Position numbers and translations under genes: made by a program
Assembly: GCA_922989275.2 (NCBI GenBank)
Contig: OV277868.1
Coordinates: forward strand, 78,296,216 to 78,360,215
DNA length: 64,000 nt
Reading direction: 5' to 3'
Source: Gari tellinella
Taxonomy: Eukaryota; Mollusca; Bivalvia; Cardiida; Psammobiidae
The notes under the pieces: model-generated
Told to the model about the DNA's origin: nothing
The model's database searches: none
Seen by the model: only the letters and a program-made list of their open reading frames with translations
Part shown: in pieces, positions 10,405-56,761 of the stretch
Layout: each line of letters opens with the position of its first letter
How positions within the stretch are numbered: position 1 is the stretch's first letter

Positions 10405-10428
10405 TGTCGTAGGGTGATCGTGTAATTA
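10405..10428 (+). repeat. 5' LTR stub
   Basis: A 24-base stretch identical to the start of the 3' LTR at 11501-11524. It is the only part of the 5' LTR left, which places one deletion breakpoint about 24 bases into the LTR. Confidence 0.6.
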
Positions 10429-10448
10429 TAAAACAGACACTTTTAAAA

Positions 10449-11114
10449 ATGTTAGGCACATTGGAAGAGAACCAAAAATCAGATTGGAAAAGCCACATAA
10501 ATACACTTGTACATGCATACAATGTAACACCTCACCCAAGTACAAAGTTTTCACCATACTATTTAATGTTCGGCAGACATCCTAAATTAGCTGTTGATGC
10601 GTTTCTTGGCCTCAGTAACGATGAAACAGACTCAAAGGACAATCATGAATACGTCCGGAAACTACAAGATAGACTCGCATCAGCGTACAAGAAGGCAAAG
10701 GAAGCGGCAGAGAAGACAGCTAGCAAGCAGAAGACAGGATATGATGCTAAGGCACATGCTACAGCTGTCAAGCCAGGGTACTACGTTTTATTGAGGAAAG
10801 TCAGTTTGCGGGGACGGCACAAGTTAGCCGACAAGTGGGAAGAAGACCCCTATGTTGTACTGAGACAGCCCAATTCGGATATCCCGGTATTTGAGCTGAA
10901 GAAGGCCGTTCCCCATGCACGGAAGACCAAGATGGTTCACAGGAATTTGCTTCTTCCTATACGAGTCTCATCAACAGGAGAAGACAAGACAAATACTCAA
11001 AGATACGTCATTCCTGCCAGACGCCAAGGTCATCAATCAGAAGGAAGTGGTGAAGACTATGCCAAGAAACCAAGACGCAGTCAGCGCATTCTACAGAAGA
11101 GATCATCGAGATAG
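10449..11114 (+). CDS. Ty3/gypsy integrase C-terminal region (pol remnant)
   Basis: An intact 221-codon frame. LVHAYNVTPHPSTKFSPYY + LMFGRHP is the end of the integrase core in gypsy elements (the 'HxSTxxSPYxLMFG' block). Next is a Lys/Ala-rich helix, and then KLADKWEEDPYVVLRQ and KMVHRNLLLP, the GPF/Y module (here DPY) that ends many gypsy integrases. The tail is basic (RRSQRILQKRSSR). The apparent ATG is probably just an internal Met, since the element is deleted just upstream. The frame is uninterrupted, so the copy is fairly young, but it cannot be autonomous. Confidence 0.85.
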   Translation: MLGTLEENQKSDWKSHINTLVHAYNVTPHPSTKFSPYYLMFGRHPKLAVDAFLGLSNDETDSKDNHEYVRKLQDRLASAYKKAKEAAEKTASKQKTGYDAKAHATAVKPGYYVLLRKVSLRGRHKLADKWEEDPYVVLRQPNSDIPVFELKKAVPHARKTKMVHRNLLLPIRVSSTGEDKTNTQRYVIPARRQGHQSEGSGEDYAKKPRRSQRILQKRSSR

Positions 11115-13322: not shown

Positions 13323-15351
13323 CTATTGCACGATAAAATATCTACAATAATATGACCTTTGTATAACCTCATTATGCTGATTAGTTAATTCTCTTCTGCC
13401 AGACTTGATTAGAAATTTTACGAGACGACAAATGTCATTGCTTGTAGTATTGCTGTGTAGTGACACTCTAACCAGTTTTTCTACGACATTTCTGATATTT
13501 TGAGTTGTCAAAGCCTTATTGCGGTACGATTTCATGCAAATCATCTTCCTTCTCTATTGTCGATCGGTCGCCCTACTGCCATGTCTCTTGGGAAATATGA
13601 CATTATTCTCATTCCTGAAATCTTCAAGTCCTTCCTGTCCACAGAACTCTACTACAACCGAATCTGTTGTTCCGCGACCACTTTCTATGTTCTTCCACAC
13701 AAAGAATCCACCCTGTTCCAATGTCGATACATCTTCCTGAACACGTTTACAATTGTTTGCAGTACTGTCAGGCTGGAACACTTTTAGAAAATGATATATT
13801 GCGTATTCAGATGTTCCATCTGATTTTGGTATATTGTTATAAAGTGTTTCTTTATCCATCAGGAAGAGATGAATGATTCCAAACGTTTGACACAGAATGC
13901 AATTTTATTTTATTGGCTTCTCCTGTCATTGTAACGATATAAAGAGGACAAAGAGTGTCAATTGTTTCATCTTTGGTAGTAGCAGATGTATTTGCACAAT
14001 CTTCAGCAATGTCATCTATAAGCACTATTTGTTCTAAGCATGTCAGAAAAAATGAAATCGTCTTCCCCTTCCACAAAAATAACTCTTCTAGCAAGAAATA
14101 TTGTAGCAAAATTGCAGCCACGAAATCATTCGAGCGACCTGTTTGCCCCCAGGTGGTAGTATGCTTCTCATAGCAACAACTTGAATATCTGTGCTCAGTC
14201 CCTTGTTTAATTCTACGAAAATGATATGTTTGAGGAATGCTGCACGGCGATAGGAAACTCGGCTGATGGCTTGTTAGAATGATGATTTTTTTTCTGTTCC
14301 AGCAAGAACCAAATCTCTGAATCGTTCGACCATCTGGATATGCATGCCTCTGTCAGCATCCTGTAGACACACAGTTTTATATCGGTCAAGCGATAGAATT
14401 ATCGATATCTTCTTAGCCTCGTATATACCCTCCGGTATTTTCAGAATAGATATTGCTTTCTTCTTTCCGTCTTTGAAATTGCCATTATGTGCTACAATCT
14501 TGTCGTTAATGATTTGGATCTCAAAGCCGCACCTGTCTGTTAAATTATTGAAATACCATTCTTCCTTTTCCTTTTCTTTGTCAGTGATATGTTCGATGTT
14601 TGTCAGATACCAGTTTAATATTTCAGCCCTTTCTGTTACAGTTTTGATGTTCTCTGATGTCTGGCTTTGTTTCAATTTTTCGCTTTCTGTCCATTGGTAT
14701 GGCGAAATACCTTTCATTGGAAAAGTAATAACAGTTGTTCTGTCAACATTCCGTCACAGAATTATTTCGCATTTTGTCTCGATTTGCTCATCGTTTTCTG
14801 AATTAATAAATTGTTTGATCTCAGAGTGGTATTCTCCCAATTTATCTATGAAATCGTCACCAAAACCAAGTTTGTTTTCCCAATTCCTGTAGATTTGTTT
14901 AAGTTCAGCTGTTGATTTTTCTGTACGTGAACTATCTTGTTACCTTTTCTTTCACAATGTCAACGGCAAAGTTATTGCAACCGTCCTGTTCCTTAACATA
15001 TACAATCTTTATAACATGTTCATTGTATTGTTCATCATCTGTGTTGTCAGCTATTCGAATCACTGACGAAAACTAATCATTGTTGTTACCTCCGGTATCA
15101 AAATGGCAAGTTACAAACATAAGTTTGTCTGACGCGTGTGGATTGGACATACAAAGACTCTTTGATGTGCTCATGCATCTTCGAATAGCTTCAAAAACAC
15201 AACTCTTTCCAGAATTATTTTCTCCAATGAAAATCACAGAACAGCTGATGTCGTTAATGCCAATCGTTTCATCTTCAAAATGCACAAAGTTCTTCAGTCT
15301 GAACTTCCGCAGCATTTCGACTATGAATGACACTCGTGTGGTATACTTCAA
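13323..15351 (-). pseudogene. Relic of an OLD-family ATPase with TOPRIM nuclease domain
   Basis: A broken intronless reading frame. At the N-terminus: KFRLKNFVHFEDETIG, then Walker A GENNSGKS (15225-15202). In-frame TAG stops at 15075-15073 and 14934-14932 are followed by a frame change and a TGA at 14756-14754. The next part has a Walker-B-like segment YKTVCLQDADRGMHIQMV (canonical Glu not visible), then, after a shift in an A-run near 14280, IIILTSHQP (switch His) and HIIFVELNKG. After further shifts RRVIFVEGEDDFIFSDML appears at about 14089-14036, whose E-G-x-D-D fits a TOPRIM acidic motif. The tail has GLEDFRNENNVIFPK and LVKFLIKSGRREL in other frames. ABC-type ATPase followed by TOPRIM is the OLD layout. 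At least five lesions make it non-functional as read. Confidence 0.75.
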
Positions 15352-15451
15352 TACAAACGAGAGAATCCGCTATTGACTTAGTACAGTAACGAAACAGTTA
15401 CGAACAAACGTAAACGAACGAAACTGTGTATGGAAAAACAACAGGGTCCAA

Positions 15452-15597
15452 GGTTATAAAGCTTTTGAGTTGAGTCAGATACTATTCTAAAACATTCGAT
15501 TGGTCAGTTTTGAGACTAGGCTCCAATCTGACCAATAAAATGCTTGAGAACTACATCAGGCTTAGCTCAAACGCTTTATAGCCTTGGAGCCTGACTG
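15452..15597. repeat. Inverted-repeat element
   Basis: ccaaggttataaagcttttg + agttgagtc pairs imperfectly with gctcaaacgctttatagcct + tgg; inner arms attggtcagttttgagacta / tctgaccaataaaatgcttg. A diverged relative is at 53198-53320 (ccaagattataaagccgttg, tcaatctctttataacattg). Confidence 0.65.
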
Positions 15598-23282: not shown

Positions 23283-25845
23283 TTACTGAAACTTATTCAC
23301 AATAATCTTAGTGAACTGACATAGGTTTTTCAGAACATTTGTTGAAGTAGAATTCATTAATTCATTGTATTTATGCATGTAAGGTCGGTTAAAGTAATAG
23401 CTCTTAAATATAATTTTCGCTCATTCTCAAAGAAAGGACAGATAAACAAGTAATGGAATTCATCACCTAAGTCATTTTTATCACAGAGCTGGCAACGTCT
23501 TTGATGATGCTGTATGTTATGCCATCTGCCAGTTTCTATTGGTAGTTTATGGTTTGATGTACGAAATCTTTGCAGATAAATACTAAGGTGCCTTGGAAGC
23601 GAAATTAGGTATTTTTCGAAATGATTTGTATGTTTGAATATGCTATAATGTTGACCTTTATTTGATTTGTGTGTGTTTGCATACCATGCTTGAATATATT
23701 GATCAATCAGTTTTTGTTTTATATAGGATTTGATAGGAGCTTTCTGATTGTCAAACTGGGATAACCAAAGATGTGAACAACCAGTACCATCAAGAATGTT
23801 CTTTATATGAGTCAACCATTTGTAAGTATGAGTAGTGTAGTAGTACGTATGTTGATATAGTAAGGCAGAAAATTTATTCTGATCACTAGAGATGAGATTA
23901 TGCCAAAAACTAACCATTCTAACCTTGATCACTATGTCTAGGGGGTAACCTCCGAGTTCACCGTATAACATGTACAGCAGTGTACTTTTCCTGCTGTTGG
24001 TTATTTTTCTAAGGAATTCATTGTGTACATTTTCAATTGATTGTAGATTTTCGAAACCCCAGACTTCACAGCTGTATGTCAGTATAGGCACGATGGTATG
24101 GTCGAAAAGTTTAAGCTGCAGGTCGATAGGTAAGTTTAAGTTACATATTCGTGTATAGAGAAGATGCATCGCTTTGCGGACTTGTTTCCCAATGTGTTTC
24201 TTAGCATTTAGTAAACTTCCTGATCGAGAAAATACTACTCCTAAATACTTGAAACAGTCAACAATTTCATTATTTGTATTACCAATTTTATATGTTGTTT
24301 ATAATTTTTGCGTGAACCGAATGTAATAGTTTTGGTTTTGGAAGTGTTAACATTAAGTTTCCAAGTTAGGCAATAGTCATTAAAGTCATCAAGTGATTTT
24401 TGGAAAAGTGTGGGGTCTTCACTTATCAAAACTGTGTCATCAGCATAAAGAAGGGCAATTATTTTGATAGAAAACGATGCGTTGTTGTTTAAATTATCTA
24501 ATGTTATGCCATCATTATTTTTTGATAAGAGGTCAGCTTCTAAGTCATTTAGGAAAATTGCAAATAAATAGGTGATAGGTTCTCGCCTTGTCTAACGCCT
24601 CGCTGGCAACAGAAAAATGGATTATTTCCCTGAAGTGATACACACGACTTTATATTTAAATACATGTTTCGGATTATTTGGATAAATCGGCCATTAATGT
24701 TGTGTTTGATAAGTTTATGCCAAAGTCCTGTTCGCCAAACTGAATCGAATGCTTGAGTGAAATCAATGAAGGCACAAAATAGTTTTTTCTTATTATTTCT
24801 GAGATATTGGATAAGGGTATGAAGGACAAATATGTGATCTACAGCTGAGTGGTGTTTACGAAAACCTGCTTGATTTTCAGAGAGCAATTCGTTTTCTTCT
24901 AAGAAAGAGTCTAGTCTCAAATTTAAAACTGATGTGAAGAGTTTACCGACACAGCTGATAGTTGTAATAGGTCGGTAGTTAGCCGGGTCTTCATGGTCTC
25001 CCTTGTTTTTGTAAATTGGTATGTTAACGCCCTCTGTCCAACATTTAGGAATAGTCCCAGTATCTAGTATTAAATTAATACATGGTAACATAGAGGGGAC
25101 GCATGATATGTAGTGTTGATTTAATGTATTCATTTAGAATGTTGTCCCTTCCAGCACATTTGTTAAGTTTTAGTTTTCCGACGCATTTAGTAATTTCTCC
25201 TTTTGTTATTGGAGAGTAAAGTATTTCATTATTTTGAATGTAAAAATCATCAGGTTCAATGTCAGGATCAGTGTAAGAGTTTATGTTTTTAAAGTAATCA
25301 TGATGGTCACACATAGATGGGGATTTGACTGAGGATTTGTTGGTTTTTAGACTGTTCAAATATTTCAAGTATTGTTTTGGATTACATTTCTGTAAGTTTC
25401 TGAGTTTCTTTTGCATATCCGTTTTATATTTATTTATTTCAGTGTTCATGGTTGTTTTGTAACTTTTGCTAGCTGTTTTAAGAATGTGTTTATTTTCTAC
25501 TGTTTTGTTCAGATTATATAGATTTCTACATTTTGTACCGAACCATGGCTTATTATTGGCACGCGGTTGAGTATGTGTGTGTCTGTGAGATCGGGTATTA
25601 AAAGACTTTGAAGCAGCATCTCCAAATATTTCTGATATGCTATTGGCCACATAATTAACGATATAATCACAATCTGAGTCCACACTACTTCTCGACCTTT
25701 GAATAATAGTTATTAGCTGATCCACTTTTGAGGTGTCTATTTGATATATATATTGATGTGTAAGTGATTCATTCCAGGACGGTTTATTTATTTTTTCAGG
25801 TATTACAGTTGGAGCAGGTGTGTCATTTGTGATTTTGTTTTATGT
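23283..25845 (-). mobile_element. 5'-truncated, frameshifted non-LTR retrotransposon (LINE) with reverse transcriptase
   Basis: The reading starts inside the linker after the endonuclease (PSWNESLTHQYIYQ, then KPWFGTKCRNLYNLNK), so the copy is 5' truncated near 25845. Reverse transcriptase motifs follow: NYRPITTISCVGKLF, NQAGFRKHHSAVDHIF, AFIDFTQAFDSVWR, RGVRQGENLSPI and, after a frameshift near 24575, LLYADDTVLIS (catalytic YADD). Further frameshifts lie near 25083, 24295 and 23393. The C-terminus has a Cys-Cys-His-Cys knuckle (CQLCDKNDLGDEFHYLFIC) and ends with FTKIIVNKFQ and a TAA at 23285-23283. The copy is dead. The clade cannot be named from sequence reading alone. Confidence 0.9.
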
Positions 25846-39130: not shown

Positions 39131-39188
39131 TTGAACATCGTCATCGATCGCCCCGCCAACTGGCAATGAGTAGACACATTTCACTTAC

Positions 39189-39718
39189 CCATTACTCCTA
39201 TAGGAAACCAGCAGAGAAAATCAGTAGTAAATACCAGAAACAAATTTCTAGCAATACTGATGTCATTTCTTCTTTGAGACCTGAATTGCTCCATTACTTT
39301 TGACGATTTCCTTATTTCAAGATATATCACAAGCTGCCCGATGGCTAGAAGGATGAAGGCGACAAAGTTGACGGCCACGTAGATGATGAAAGAGTAGAGC
39401 CATCCCGGAGGTCTGCGGCGGGTAAGAGGCATGGCAAGACATACGCCCGAGGTAGAGTAAAAGCTGTTCTGGAAATAGTCTTCAATCATCACTGGCATCA
39501 AGGCAATCAGAACTGATATAGACCAGTTAATACTAACAGCTATTCTAGACGATTTCGCACTGAATCTCCATTGTCCAAATGGATATTTTATGACCAGAAA
39601 CCTGTCCAATGTAACGAGGCACATAAAGCCGACACTGGCCTCAGAAGAGATAGTAGCCAAGATACCTGCCATGTTGCACCATATACTTTTTCTCCATGCT
39701 TCATCCTCCAAAATATAC
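39189..39718 (-). CDS. GPCR exon 16: TM3-TM6
   Basis: A 530-nt exon, phase 2 in and phase 1 out, has acceptor tcttttag and donor G|gtaagt. It joins exon 15 as RRYILEDEAWRKSIWCN. TM3 carries the disulfide Cys and ends LVTLDRFLVIKYP, the LGR form of the DRY motif. TM4 (INWSISVLIALMPVM), an extracellular loop with Cys (SGVCLAMP), TM5 (FIIYVAVNFVAFILLAIGQ), an intracellular loop rich in Arg/Lys/Ser and TM6 (FTTDFLCWFPIGVM) follow. The order and spacing match LGR-type rhodopsin-class receptors. Confidence 0.95.
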
Positions 39719-40194
39719 CTAAAAGATAAAAGGGTTTCGTTCATGTAGTTCAAAACAATATGATTACTTGGCATTAAAAGTTGGTACATGTATAACGACT
39801 TTGAAGAATTTCTAAAATACAGTTATGTTAGCTGCAGTTTAACGCATTTAACCATAGTAATTCATACACGCTCACTACCGGTATACTACAAGCTCTTTTT
39901 AGGGTTTTGTTTTGTACTTTTATCGATAACATTTAGAATGTTATGCCTTGTACAGAATTTAAAAATCATTGATACGAGTGTCAATTAATTTGGATCCAAA
40001 CGGATTTTACTCGTGAAAGGGTTAATAAAACATATAGATCAACATTTACAGGAAAATGTTATGTTTTTGTAATTTAATTGATTGTACAGCCACCTTGTAT
40101 CAGCTAATTTGTATTTTACTCTGACGTCGCTTTCGATTTAACGTGACGTCACTTACGTACATGTACAAGTGCCGCGTTATTCATTGCGGCAAAC

Positions 40195-40411
40195 CACGGG
40201 GGGCCAACTAGGTATTACGATGAAATGTTTCTCTACGACAACCTATATAGGTATTATAACAGATTTGTATTGCTACGAAGTCAGTGTATATAGTGAGAAA
40301 TGTTTGTCTACGAAATCAAAGTTGCCTTTGTAACAATACAAAATTGTTATAATACCCATATAGGTTGTCGTAGAGAAACATTTCATCGTAATACCTAGTT
40401 GGCCCCCCGTG
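40195..40411. mobile_element. MITE family E, copy 2 (about 217 bp)
   Basis: TIRs of about 55 bp: cacggggggccaactaggta, then ttacgatgaaatgtttctct and acgacaacctatat, with an almost perfect complement at the right ending ttggccccccgtg. Same family as the copy at 27.6 kb. It is in the intron between exons 15 and 16. Confidence 0.88.
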
Positions 40412-40824
40412 AAACAAAACCTCTTGTTCTGCTTCAAATAACTAATACTTCTTGGAAATAAAATGATTTAAACAACTATTTAGTTGTTTCTGGTGTGTAT
40501 TCAAGGCATATACTAAACACATCATCAGTTGGCAGTGCGCTACACAGTGTTGCATTTAGCGCTCGACGTTTTTGGCGGAAACAACCGATCAGACGCGCGC
40601 CAAGGCGCCCGTCAGATCGGCTATTTCCGACAAAATCGTCTCGAGCTAAATACATCACTCTGCATCGCACTGTCAACTGGTAATATGTATATATTCTACT
40701 GTTAAATAATTCTTCACTTTCATGACGGTATCTGCTTTAATAAAATTCTGTCATTAAATGTAAAGTAATATTAGACGAGTGTCAAAATATGTATATCCTG
40801 GTTAGACGCTGCGGCAGGCACCAT

Positions 40825-40894
40825 CCATATACCTATTTCTGAATGTTATGTCGGCCGTTGCTATTATAAGTAGGTAGATACCCATGAGGAAGTT
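40825..40894 (-). pseudogene. Partial duplicate of the TM2 end of GPCR exon 15
   Basis: About 70 bases (acctatttctgaatgttatg, tcggccgttgctattataag, taggtagatacccatgagga) repeat 41204-41275 with about five changes. On the minus strand they encode the end of TM2 and the following loop (YLLIIATADITF). The true exon border is missing, so this cannot serve as an exon. Confidence 0.85.
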
Positions 40895-40909
40895 TAGCAC
40901 CATTTTACT

Positions 40910-41155
40910 AGTCCACTGCCAATGGCGCCAAAAGGCGACTTTGTAAACCGTTTGAATCCTGATCAGACGCCGCGAATCGCGGCGTCTGAACAGGATCCAA
41001 ACTGTTTGACACTGGTAACGACATTTCGTCAGTCAGAACAGCCCTAAAGCTAACGGTAAAACTACTGCTGACGACACTACTAATGCAGACGATGGTTTCG
41101 CGGTAAGAGGGTTTAAAGCAGACGATAAAACTTGGCGCAGAAAGAGTTTAATTGG
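40910..41155. mobile_element. MITE family C-like copy beside exon 15
   Basis: Contains ccactgccaatggcgccaaa, the palindrome gatcagacgccgcgaatcgc and cagacgatggtttcgcggta. It lies between the end of exon 15 and a partial copy of the same exon at 40825-40894. Confidence 0.6.
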
Positions 41156-41183
41156 AAAGAATAATGTAGTATCTATTATATAC

Positions 41184-42264
41184 CTTCGCCCAAACTGCAC
41201 ATTATCCACGTACCTATTTCTGAACGTTATGTCGGCCGTTGCTATTATTAGTAGGTAGACACCCATGAGGAAGTCTGATGCTGCAAGGTTCAAAACAAAC
41301 ATTCCAAATCCCTTCTTTATTTTCTGTTTGCTGTTGATCAACCGATAAATGATTGTTATCCCATTGGCAACCAAGGCTGCAGCGCCGATCATCCATAGAA
41401 GTGTTTGGAGTATTGAGTTCTTCATCAAATCTTCACATGAGGAAAACTCGTCCTCAGATGGCCAACACTTATCCTTCTGCACCGAGCTTGGCTTGAAGCA
41501 GCAAAATTTATGAGAAGGTGTACGAACTGTAGTGAGATTTTGTATCCCAGTAAATATCAGTTCATCAAAATTTACAATTGGGTTTCCTTCAAAGTTAAGT
41601 TCCCCTACAGTTAAATTATTGAACGCATAGGCGTGCACTTCATTAATTTTATTATTCGAAATATCTAGTGTATTTAGTATAAGTCCGGAAAAGGTATTAG
41701 GCATTAGTTCTGAAATCTTTGTCTTTGTAATTGAAAGTTCTTTCAAGTAGGGTAACATTCGAAATGCTTTTGGCTCAATTGTCGATAAAAATTTATTAAA
41801 ATTGAGTTTTAAAATTTTGATATACTTCAATCCAACAAATGTATTTACCCTCAAAGTTTCAATATCATTAAAACTAAGATCAAGTTCAATTAGACTTGTT
41901 GCATTTGTGAATGTCATGTCTTCGATTGATATAAGTTGACAATGTTTTGCATATAACTTGATGAGGAATGGAAATTGTTTATGAATTGACAAGATACCTT
42001 CTTTAAACACCGTGGTATTACTAATATCTATCAACCGTGTGTTTGAATCAAAATCAACCAGACCAATGTCTCCCAAATCCTTTGAGTTGCAATTTGTAAT
42101 GTAAGGTTCACACGAACAATTTTTATTACATTGAACCTCACAGATGATTTCGTCGTCACCAAATGGGCATTGACGTTTTCCATCGCAGGTTTGATTGACC
42201 GGAATACGAATGTGGGATGACAAACATTTAAAGGTGCCCGATGTGCTTGTTGCTGTCGATGTTT
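41184..42264 (-). CDS. GPCR exon 15: LDLa-like module, leucine-rich repeats, hinge, TM1-TM2
   Basis: A long 1081-nt exon, phase 1 in and phase 2 out. It starts with an LDLa-like module (RIPVNQTCDGKRQC, then PFGDDEIIC) that has only four Cys. An LRR cap (CNKNCSCEPYITNC) and about six or seven leucine-rich repeats follow (for example SLIELDLSFNDIETL, LNTLDISNNKINEV). A hinge with HKFCCF, KCWP and SSCEDL comes next; CEDL is typical of LGR hinges. TM1 (GAAALVANGITIIYR) and TM2 (FVLNLAASDFLMGVYLL, with the conserved LAxxD Asp) end the exon. The donor is AG|gtatat. This exon fixes the family as an LGR relative. Confidence 0.95.
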
Positions 42265-43117
42265 CTAAAAGGTATTGAAAGGAATAAATGCAACCGAAAA
42301 TAAAACCTTTCAATATGGTATAAAAGTAGCCATATGATACAGTAGCTTATTTATGTAAGTTCAAATGTTACACATTTTATATAATGATCGGTTTGTACAC
42401 TGACACGAATAGCCACATAAATATAGCTCACCTATGGTAACCGTAAATATCTTAAAAAACAATTTGATTGGGACACCCGGTATCAACTGTTGTTATTATC
42501 CTTAAAATGAACTGCACGGTTTTGTTTTTACTCACAAACAAAAAGGCGAAGTGTAAATGAAAAACAGTGTAGATCCTGATCAGACAGTTCCTTGGGAGCA
42601 TTCTGATCAGGGTCTACACTATTTTATCGGACCTTTTAGTCCCAATATCTCGGGTCATTACGGTAAAAGTTATTGATCTCAGCCTATTAACCCATTCACT
42701 GCGACATAATTTCGTCTGCTTCACATTTGTTGACTGAATTTACTTGTTCGATTTTATCTCGGTATTGACCTAAGCACGCATATGGTATAGGAGCCAAGCA
42801 ATTTAGGTCTTAATTAGACGCCAGTCTCCGACTATAATTAACAGACGCATCTAGTTTCGATCCAGATCAAACGCCGCATCTGATCAGGATGCACGCTGTT
42901 TTACACAAACGTCATTTGTTCTTAAGTTCAAGCGCATAAAATTCCAAAATTTATAAGTAAAACTGACGACACTTAAAAGCAGACAATTAATATGGGAGAC
43001 GGTTAAAACGCCACACTTGCAGCGAAAATGTTAAAACCGTTTTGACATGAAAACAATGTATCCAACAGCAATAAACGAATGAATAACATCAAACAGTACT
43101 TTCTTCAAGTAACCTAC

Positions 43118-54325: not shown

Positions 54326-54500
54326 TCTAGCAAGGTGACAGTAAAACAGAAAGCTCCTGTAGACGATTTTTGTTTTACTGCCACCTTGCTTTAAGCTGTC
54401 ACTTGTCTTTTATACAACCAATTAGCCTTACTTTTAGTGTTCGTAATAGAGAGGTTTACTGTAGTTCCAGAAGTTATTTCAGATGCGAACAAGTATACAG

Positions 54501-55656
54501 ACGAATGTACAACAACTATACAACGTGCGTACTGCAGTATTCATCACTGCCATCGGGACAATCCTGAACAAAGTCACACACTCGCCCGACATGGATACAA
54601 ACACCATTGTTACAGGCGAATGTACAACAACTATACAACGTGCGTACTGCAGTATTCATCACTGCCATCGGGACAATCCTGGACAAAGTCACACACTCGC
54701 CCGACATGGATACAAACACCATTGTTACAGGCGAATGTACAACAACTATACAAAGTGCGTACTGCAGTATTCATCGCTGCCATCAGGACAATCCTGGACA
54801 AAGTCACACACTCGCCCGACATGGATACAAACACCATTGTTACAGACGAATGTACAACAACTATACAAAGTGCGTACTGCAGTATTCATCACTGCCATCG
54901 GGACAATCCTGGACAAAGTCACACACTCGCCCGACATGGATACAAACACCATTGTTACAGACGAATGTACAACAACTATACAAAGTGCGTACTGCAGTAT
55001 TCATCACTGCCATCGGGACAATCCTGAACAAAGTCACACACTCGCCCGACATGGATACAAACACCATTGTTACAGGCGAATGTACAACAACTATACAAAG
55101 TACGTACTGCAGTATTCATCACTGTCATCGGGACAATCCTGGACAAAGTCACACACTCGCCCGACATGGATACAAACACCATTGTTACAGGCGAATGTAC
55201 AACAACTATACAAAGTACGTACTGCAGTATTCATCACTGCCATCAGGACAATCCTGGACAAAGTCACACACTCGCCCGACATGGATACAAACACCATTGT
55301 TACAGGCGAATGTACAACAACTATACAAAGTGCGTACTGCAGTATTCATCACTGCCATCAGGACAATCCTGGACAAAGTCACACACTCGCCCGACATGGA
55401 TACAAACACCATTGTTACAGACGAATGTACAACAACTATACAAAGTACGTACTGCAGTATTCATCACTGCCATCAGGACAATCCTGAACAAAGTCACACA
55501 CTCGCCCGACATGGATACAAACACCATTGTTACAGACGAATGTACAACAATTATACAAAGTGCGTACTGCAGTATTCATCGCTGCCATCGGGACAATCCT
55601 GGACAAAGTCACACACTCGCCCGACATGGATACAAACACCATTGTTACAGGCGAAT
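54501..55656. repeat. Tandem array, 10 x 115 bp, each unit carrying most of an LDLa exon
   Basis: Ten nearly identical 115-bp units run head to tail. On the minus strand each encodes [15 protein letters not shown] followed by [14 protein letters not shown], the body of LDLa exon 6. Because 115 is not a multiple of three, the LDLa frame is lost from one unit to the next. Only the right-hand unit has the original acceptor and first Cys pair (55568-55678). Units differ by few bases (for example g/a before the tgtac motif, tgcgtac/tacgtac), so expansion or homogenisation is recent. Several units carry gtacgt, a better splice-donor match than the founder's gtacgc. Confidence 0.95.
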
Positions 55657-55678
55657 TCGTCAGTTAGGCATGTACCTC
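55568..55678 (-). CDS. GPCR exon 6: LDLa module 2 (founder of the 115-bp array)
   Basis: A 111-nt exon (37 codons, phase 1-1) has acceptor atttcag. It encodes [16 protein letters not shown], then [21 protein letters not shown] split over the remainder: a complete six-Cys LDLa module with the SDE acidic box. The proposed donor is A|gtacgc, which is weak. This exon is the upstream end of a tandem array of ten 115-bp units, of which only this unit keeps the sequence between the acceptor and the first Cys pair. The module and phases are convincing; which donor is really used is not settled. Confidence 0.7.
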
Positions 55679-56761
55679 CTGAAATGAATTACATAAGCAC
55701 TATTAATAAGTTATTTTTTCCCATTTAAATGCAAACGAAACGCATGCGCGTTGCACTATAAAATCTAAGTTGTCTTTACAGAGAGGAGAACACAATTCGT
55801 TCTCCCTAACGCGCTTGTATTCCTATAATTGAAGCACAGTCGAAACTTGATAATTTGAACCTGCTGTAGATCGAAATACCCATAGTTTAACGTTAAAACG
55901 TGACGCCATGACTGTGTTAACGTTGAAATATGGGTATGTTCTTAAAAGCGAAATCCCATTCTCAATTTAAAACTTATGAAATACTGGTAGGGTTGATTTT
56001 AGCGAGTTTGGGGTATCGAGTGTCGACTAGTCGTGAGCGTAATGTGGCGTTTGATCAGGGTCCAACTGTTAGAAACTAGTATCGATATTTCTTCAGTCTA
56101 AATACCCTAGATCTGACTTGAAAACATTATGTTGATGACACTATACATACTGATGCCATTTAGCGTTGAGAGGATAATCAAGCAGACGATTCTATTCGAC
56201 AAAATACCTTATTACACCTCACTTTTAGTTACAATGTTAATTTCCCATCGACAAAAATGAAACATTTAGTATGTCTTTTACATCTATCCAAAACGAATAC
56301 TGTCACAATGTGATATTCCTTTCGCTATGTTAATTTCGTAGAAAATATATAAAGGCAGGTTACTCCTGATCAGCTTTTAGTATTTGAGTTGCTTCCCTTT
56401 ATCCACTCCTTACAAACGTTTTAGCGTCTAGACAACTTGATCATGCTTTTTTTAACCAAGATTACTGTCACGGACGACACCAAACGTGGCATCCACACGA
56501 TATGCCACATTTTCGGAGGATGATATTTGCCAAGACAACTAGATTGAATACACGTCTGTTTCATTGTCTAAATGAAAAAGACGTGTCTTCAATCTACTTG
56601 TCTTAACGTTCTTCTTTCTTTTTTGTTATGATTGAACAATATAACGTCGTTTCCCGCCTTACGTGCACGGCGGCGCTAATTTGGTATTCACAACATATTT
56701 TATAAAATACGGAGGAGCATATTCCATAAACAGGGCTGATAAGCTCGGTGTAATAAAACAA

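Follow-up and report, generated by a model that had tools for sequence, protein, structure and literature searches.

Nucleases of the OLD family have been studied as defence enzymes of bacteria and phages, and the paper that classifies them states, in the portion of its text available to us, that homologues are absent from eukaryotes, its set comprising 833 homologues from KEGG (PMC6755086). Class 1 OLDs, such as P2 Old and the Thermus scotoductus OLD (TsOLD; PDB 6p74), are single genes, and two papers, in the portions available, suspect that the ATPase domain of OLD proteins controls a TOPRIM nuclease that uses two metals (PMC6755086, PMC10568477). GajA of the Gabija system (PDB 8sm3 and 8x5i) is a Class 2 OLD and the effector of retron-Eco8 (PDB 9lp9) a Class 3 OLD.

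Here we describe the relic of an OLD-type gene in a stretch of 64,000 nucleotides from the bivalve Gari tellinella (C13:78296216-78360215, the whole of which we call the window), and the gene family to which it led. The relic alone is an ordinary find; the weight lies in the expanded, selectively kept animal OLD family.

The feature in the window is a pseudogene (Table 1) that arose as a duplicate within a local cluster of genes of OLD type, with an ABC-ATPase and a TOPRIM domain. In a single blastn alignment of 2047 columns it is 81.5% identical in DNA to L005, an intact gene on the same contig at a distance of 0.37 Mb, and its main pieces align with L043 (82.6% over 1882 columns) and L044, which is the same locus as L034 (82.4% over 1849 columns). 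In a tBLASTn comparison, L005 aligned to the window in pieces, at 81% identity for residues 1-121, 57% for residues 130-633, crossing stops and frame changes, and 51% for residues 345-476. The homology includes ~120 nt of 5' flank, with the coding-equivalent start at 15315 and the coding part reaching down to ~13403. Relative to the actual 13403-15434, the extent first given for this feature, 13323-15351, was slightly shifted.

Table 1. Positions in the window of the OLD-type relic, its conserved segments and the adjoining palindrome
Feature	Position	Strand	Basis or remark
Relic of OLD-type ABC-ATPase + TOPRIM gene	13403..15434	-	blastn to L005/L042, tblastn pieces, L043/L044 alignments
Walker A / P-loop GENNSGKS	15202..15225	-	motif match; N-terminal piece passes Pfam AAA_15
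PEGIYEAK, conserved segment before Walker B	14412..14435	-	G, E and A invariant in 14/14 intact copies
DRGMHIQM, Walker B end and following residues	14331..14354	-	
Switch segment TSHQP	14260..14274	-	His invariant in 14/14; frame differs from Walker B
TOPRIM glutamate motif FVEGEDD	14057..14077	-	third frame
Conserved C-terminal segment NIRNVVEKLVRVSL	13458..13499	-	
152-bp palindrome, 76-nt arms, 76% complementary, MITE-like	15442..15593	.	outside the gene, at the 5' end of the homology

Four motifs had been reported in a fixed order on one strand, broken by stops and frameshifts, and this is what we observed: all four lie in order on the minus strand, spread over three reading frames. Because motifs alone are weak evidence (the string TSHQP has one further occurrence, on the plus strand of the window), the identity of the relic was decided by homology. 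An HMM search of the separate pieces succeeded for the ATPase head, with the N-terminal piece alone reaching 34.5 bits for Pfam AAA_15 against a cut-off of 32.1, but the other seven pieces, each searched separately against Pfam, stayed below cut-off, and the TOPRIM identity of the relic therefore rests on its paralogues. FVEGEDD is present and the TOPRIM string LLDYDA was not found in the relic.

Compared with L005 and L034, the relic carries three in-register stops in 619 codons, a rearranged linker and seven insertions or deletions whose length is no multiple of three. The substitutions found only in the relic are distributed 66:53:103 over codon positions 1, 2 and 3, which is an uneven spread (chi-square p 1e-4), and those confined to the L005 and L034 lineages are distributed 18:14:39 and 25:22:44, respectively. 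Since this spread is unlike purely neutral change, the relic was probably under coding constraint for some of the time after it became separate, before stops and frameshifts broke it down.

Intact relatives had been suspected elsewhere in the genome, and at least 14 long, uninterrupted, single-exon members were found. In a first genome-wide family search (1.598 Gb in 80 contigs), six long open frames came up besides the relic. With the protein of L005 (633 aa) as query, the whole genome gave 22 matches, of which 14 are uninterrupted frames of 635-810 aa. Of the remainder, four fall in the relic, two are detached C-terminal ends of copies that the count already includes, and two other broken fragments have one match each (C13:78.55 Mb and C1:91.00 Mb). 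Searching again with L007, which belongs to a different subgroup, yielded 16 matches, namely the same 14 copies and two pieces of the relic. Three large contigs (80-122 Mb) carry the copies, most of which are locally clustered: C13 has five towards its end (78.46-78.72 Mb, with the relic at 78.31) and one at 34.97 Mb, C12 has three (15.56-15.64 Mb) and C1 has five (60.6, 61.7, 83.8, 90.98 and 90.99 Mb). They form at least five diverged subgroups within one genome, and L057 (the same locus as L001) is very divergent within the family in the trees described below. Thirteen of the 14 look whole; the exception is L043 (L043:1501-3918, C13:78.67 Mb), in which the linker holds an expanded minisatellite of ~21-residue repeats (SRPSSADLPSVTSDTKGITKQ type) and the C-terminal end lies in another frame.

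That these genes form a family of OLD type is nearly beyond doubt. AAA_21 and OLD-like_TOPRIM (PF20469) were both matched in all 14 copies (Pfam, E<=0.01), which upholds the reading of the relic as an OLD-type nuclease gene, and in six members scanned singly PF20469 was always above its curated cut-off and SMC_N always below its own. The top PADLOC row was Old, GajA or AriA in each of these six, with GajA models best in three, but 50-91 families match each member at E<=1 in PADLOC, which is without cut-offs. All 14 copies have the P-loop (pattern GxNx[ST]GK[ST], with G, N, G and K conserved), two Walker B acids (the second being D in 11 and E in 3) and the switch histidine, together with the TOPRIM glutamate and DxD. 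In L049 (L049:1501-3528), one of two close copies, VEE stands in place of the [VG]EG of the others, so that the TOPRIM glycine after the catalytic glutamate is replaced. For the B. pseudomallei OLD, the available portion of PMC6755086 lists E404, T506 and E508 as extra metal-B residues. Placed by eye in our 14 sequences, the E404 equivalent is D or E throughout, the E508 equivalent is E in eight, D in four, Q in one and K or unplaced in one (L057), and the T506 equivalent is variable.

A profile of 15 own and database rows, which left out L043 and P0006, matched a profile of nine prokaryotic-type OLDs over 530 columns with 99.4% probability (E 3.7e-21). Against PDB sequences, the match of the family profile to Rad50 P-loops (at best 3e-5, residues 2-43 only) came slightly ahead of that to TsOLD (8e-4, residues 318-430). 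We also modelled L005 from a 13-row alignment (mean pLDDT 79.3); a model of L007 made without an alignment was discarded (pLDDT 34). For the L005 model, Foldseek listed only GajA, retron-Eco8 and TsOLD in its first eight ranks (E 8e-14 to 2e-12), with GajA best (E 7.9e-14), retron-Eco8 second (E 1.1e-13) and TsOLD matching over the whole length (E 1.8e-13), where the structural alignment shows 13% identity. Measured by query over the full chain, TM-scores to these OLD entries are low (0.33-0.45). VIA-align ranked Rad50/SMC heads first, over residues 1 to ~411, its best 50 rows covering mainly the head. Both this ranking and that of the PDB profile search can be explained by the shared ATPase head; neither covers the TOPRIM domain. 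The family does resemble Rad50/SMC in head fold and P-loop sequence, but the chain runs ~220-290 aa past the head, where all 14 copies have a TOPRIM domain, and the model, with a longest helix of 17 residues, has no long coiled coil. We therefore rejected an ordinary Rad50/SMC protein.

As in Class 1 OLDs, the ABC-ATPase head is followed by TOPRIM and no partner gene was recognised beside the family copies in the stretches read, whereas the animal host, the many copies, the size (~616-713 aa, L043 aside) and a variable linker before the last helices set the family apart. No UvrD/PcrA/Rep-like helicase, such as the GajB that adjoins GajA in Gabija, was recognised by Pfam among the 10 neighbouring ORFs of at least 130 aa near four copies (L001, L004, L006 and L007). 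Concerning retron-Eco8, the reverse-transcriptase ORFs near family copies match RVT_1 and are LINE-like by eye, and Rfam at gathering scores gave no match in the 64-kb window.

Nine pairs of copies were compared for selection, with L043 trimmed to 600 residues. The six recent pairs, involving nine members, have dN/dS values of 0.285, 0.290, 0.357, 0.241, 0.289 and 0.268 at dS 0.17-0.48; three of them include L043, which is partly disrupted, or other members of its cluster, and the highest value (0.357) involves L043. Two older pairs have dN/dS 0.25 at dS 1.2-1.4 and one is saturated. These ratios indicate that the intact reading frames are under purifying selection.

The close copies of the C13 and C12 clusters have non-coding flanks in common. 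Flanks are shared on both sides by L005 and L034, for ~1 kb past the stop and ~0.2 kb before the start by L052 and L053, and for ~0.56 kb past the stop and only 44 nt before the start by L049 and L050. No A-run of 10 or more was present within 600 nt after any of the 13 stops of intact copies examined. With shared flanks and no A-runs, duplication appears to have been mostly local and at the DNA level, L051 and L054 aside, which lie 1.1 Mb apart and share the coding part alone.

These observations bear on the suggestion that the window copy arose by retrocopying from a spliced animal gene, as a processed copy. The relic is without introns and its homology to L005 stops near the stop codon, as a retrocopy would have it, but all 14 relatives are likewise single-exon and ~120 nt of 5' flank lie within the homology, and neither the flanks common to L005 and L034 nor the stops without A-runs fit such an origin. 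Two genome-wide protein searches with exon-by-exon matching showed no intron-containing parent, and because every member found is single-exon, the lack of introns characterises the family as a whole. We consider a retrocopy, for which an intron-containing parent, poly(A) and loss of flanks would be expected, very improbable and rejected it. The earlier note had left the choice between horizontal transfer and retrocopy open; of the two, prokaryotic ancestry by transfer is favoured, with no donor among the matches listed. By eye, nine of 15 rows, including the relic and several subgroups, have an AG at 4-5 nt upstream of the start codon, a hint that it is possibly the splice acceptor of a 5'-UTR intron. 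The statistics are weak: a simple acceptor score reached 5.5 in five of 15 rows, which are not independent, compared to 11% of control windows.

On the 5' side, the homology between the relic and the intact copies stops at 15434, beside the 152-bp palindrome. Relatives of this palindrome occur within ~1.5 kb of four of the 14 intact copies (L047, L052, L053 and L054) and ~1.1 kb after L001, and there is one partial place elsewhere in the 64-kb window. Such an arrangement could arise if the OLD genes were passengers or parts of a mobile element, either a transposon or an integrated virus, that spreads them. The spread of copies over three large contigs and the coding part being all that L051 and L054 have in common would also fit, as would the reverse-transcriptase or endonuclease-like ORFs near two copies: near L004 one RVT_1 match is above cut-off and one below, and near L007 there is one weak match. 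However, the side and distance of the palindrome vary between copies, the flank pieces common to subgroups are short dispersed repeats at varying places, and most subgroups sit in local clusters. The flank comparisons, with an unsystematic look at terminal repeats, revealed no common element ends. Viral sources argue in the same direction: one scan of viral contigs gave four distant OLD loci (two with both TOPRIM motifs), a second gave no OLD relatives, and one query against 50,697 phage records gave none. A mobile element as carrier is thus quite improbable, and L052 and L053 may share their palindrome relative by descent.

Some eukaryotic entries in protein databases are named after GajA or Old domains. 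In searches of 5.8 billion proteins, with ~8,000 candidates scored per search, we found at least six non-distant relatives (P0001, P0002 and P0007-P0010). The only named close relative among the matches listed is P0007, the hypothetical protein CHS0354_020388 of the bivalve Potamilus streckersoni, which has the same architecture, matches PF20469 above cut-off and falls on the same side of the tree; it differs in its 828 aa and longer linker, and shows 30% identity at 80% coverage in the comparison with L055. A scan of genome contigs for closer relatives gave at least 20 loci, among which a regular expression found both TOPRIM motifs in L010, L018, L019 and L026; L008, L019 and L020 run off the contig end. 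Bacterial-looking matches were trimmed to an ORF start by script.

Our second tree has 35 rows (13 own, 6 database and 16 prokaryotic-type) and a midpoint root; P0003-P0005 and P0011-P0019 are taken as prokaryotic-type from their Pfam content, the size of their contigs and, in two cases, the source name (OLD-family endonuclease). The own and database rows split from the 16 prokaryotic-type OLDs at 100/100 support, on a branch of ~1.9 changes per column, with a warning from the program that long branches meet across this split and a flag on the composition of P0013 and P0015. The order among the own and database rows is largely unresolved in this tree; a smaller first tree had grouped P0001 and P0002 with the C12 group and L057 at 96/93. 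L043, trimmed to 600 residues in the first tree as well, is absent from the second, and P0006, L010 and L029 are in the first only. Loci without both TOPRIM motifs together (L008, L009, L011-L017, L020-L025, L027, L030 and L031) are in neither. The tree points to no donor group, and no prokaryotic donor or intermediate was found among the genome-contig matches listed, the viral contigs or the phage records.

Transfer from prokaryotes is favoured by the single exon of all 14 copies together with the reported absence of OLDs in eukaryotes (PMC6755086, available portion), and we judge a prokaryotic origin by transfer likely. Inheritance from a common eukaryote ancestor with loss in most lineages would account for the long separation of the own-plus-database clade from all sampled prokaryotic-type OLDs (branch 1.9) and for a donor not turning up in the searches made, but the same single-exon structure and the same report, with no eukaryotic homologues among its 833 from KEGG, make it improbable. 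Bacterial or phage DNA contaminating the assembly, which might come to mind since OLD genes are typical of bacteria and phages, has a practically negligible chance. The copies are on chromosome-sized contigs, an RVT_1 ORF lies near L004, at least five diverged subgroups occur together in one genome, and no close prokaryotic relative was among the matches listed. In addition, the flanks of L005 hold dispersed repeats that recur in the window at up to 95% identity, which places L005 in the same genome as the window. Contamination was rejected on the shared repeats, the contig sizes and the diverged subgroups, and the relic belongs, as had been assumed, to a eukaryotic genome. As the best explanation, we consider it likely that an old acquisition of a prokaryotic OLD was followed by birth-and-death expansion, the window copy being one of the deaths. 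The prokaryotic OLD gene would have been taken up early by an animal lineage, in which duplications, mostly local, and losses then gave rise to the present set of at least 14 single-exon frames on three large contigs.

No account of animal OLD nucleases was found among the matches listed from the open-licence PMC literature, and one may be in print elsewhere. The words OLD, Gabija, rotifer and bivalve do not occur in the available text of PMC13142454, on another transferred bacterial immune protein, nor do 'endonuclease', 'TOPRIM' and 'bivalv' in the available main text of PMC13342648, a compendium of transfers into animals.

The intact proteins would have a SMC/Rad50-like ATPase head with an inserted helical region and would form dimers, in which ATP binding would gate a C-terminal TOPRIM active site (E, D/E, DxD and mostly a later E/D) that would cut DNA with two metals. 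Such an ATP-gated DNA nuclease is plausible because the metal-A residues and the acid equivalent to E404 are kept in all 14 copies and the E508 equivalent is mostly E or D, and we think it reasonably likely that active DNA nucleases are encoded. Their most likely use would be cell-autonomous cutting of foreign or damaged DNA. Foreign DNA as the target is a guess from the history of the OLD family and from the birth-and-death clustering, and we suggest a role in defence, perhaps antiviral, only tentatively.

A clustered birth-and-death pattern that includes pseudogenes is common among defence genes but uncommon among repair genes. The copy number pattern seen here accordingly speaks against the main rival reading, in which family and transfer are the same but the role is in host DNA metabolism (repair, replication or germline) and not in antiviral defence. 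That reading has in its favour the Rad50/SMC-like head and an average selection that is purifying, not positive. It also has a precedent in the archaeal OLD protein Cran1, which, according to the available portion of PMC12796447, acts in cell-cycle progression and apparently not in antiviral defence, suggesting that OLD proteins can serve host DNA metabolism. We regard such a role as rather unlikely for the present family.

Returning to defence, molluscs are not known to have adaptive immunity, and with a selectively constrained, single-exon, multigene animal OLD family it becomes possible to test whether animals have acquired and retained an immunity enzyme of prokaryotes. In its widest form, which we consider doubtful, the proposal is that a prokaryotic OLD was domesticated in bivalves, and perhaps in further animal groups, as an immune effector that stands alone, works inside the cell and cuts DNA under the control of ATP. 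Within each genome this effector would have split long ago into five or more subfamilies, with birth and death ongoing, and would constitute an animal branch of a defence family reported absent from eukaryotes.

The window also holds features apart from the relic. A leucine-rich-repeat ORF (PF13855) adjoins a rhodopsin-type 7tm ORF (PF00001) at 39181-42346 on the minus strand, and the two are probably exons of one host LRR-containing GPCR gene. A reverse transcriptase ORF (RVT_1) lies at 24549-25133 on the minus strand, and an ORF at 10413-11114 on the plus strand resembles the end of a retroelement integrase by eye and has no Pfam match. At 54395-55728, a short-unit tandem repeat is open in all three plus-strand frames, one of which was scanned and gave no family above cut-off.
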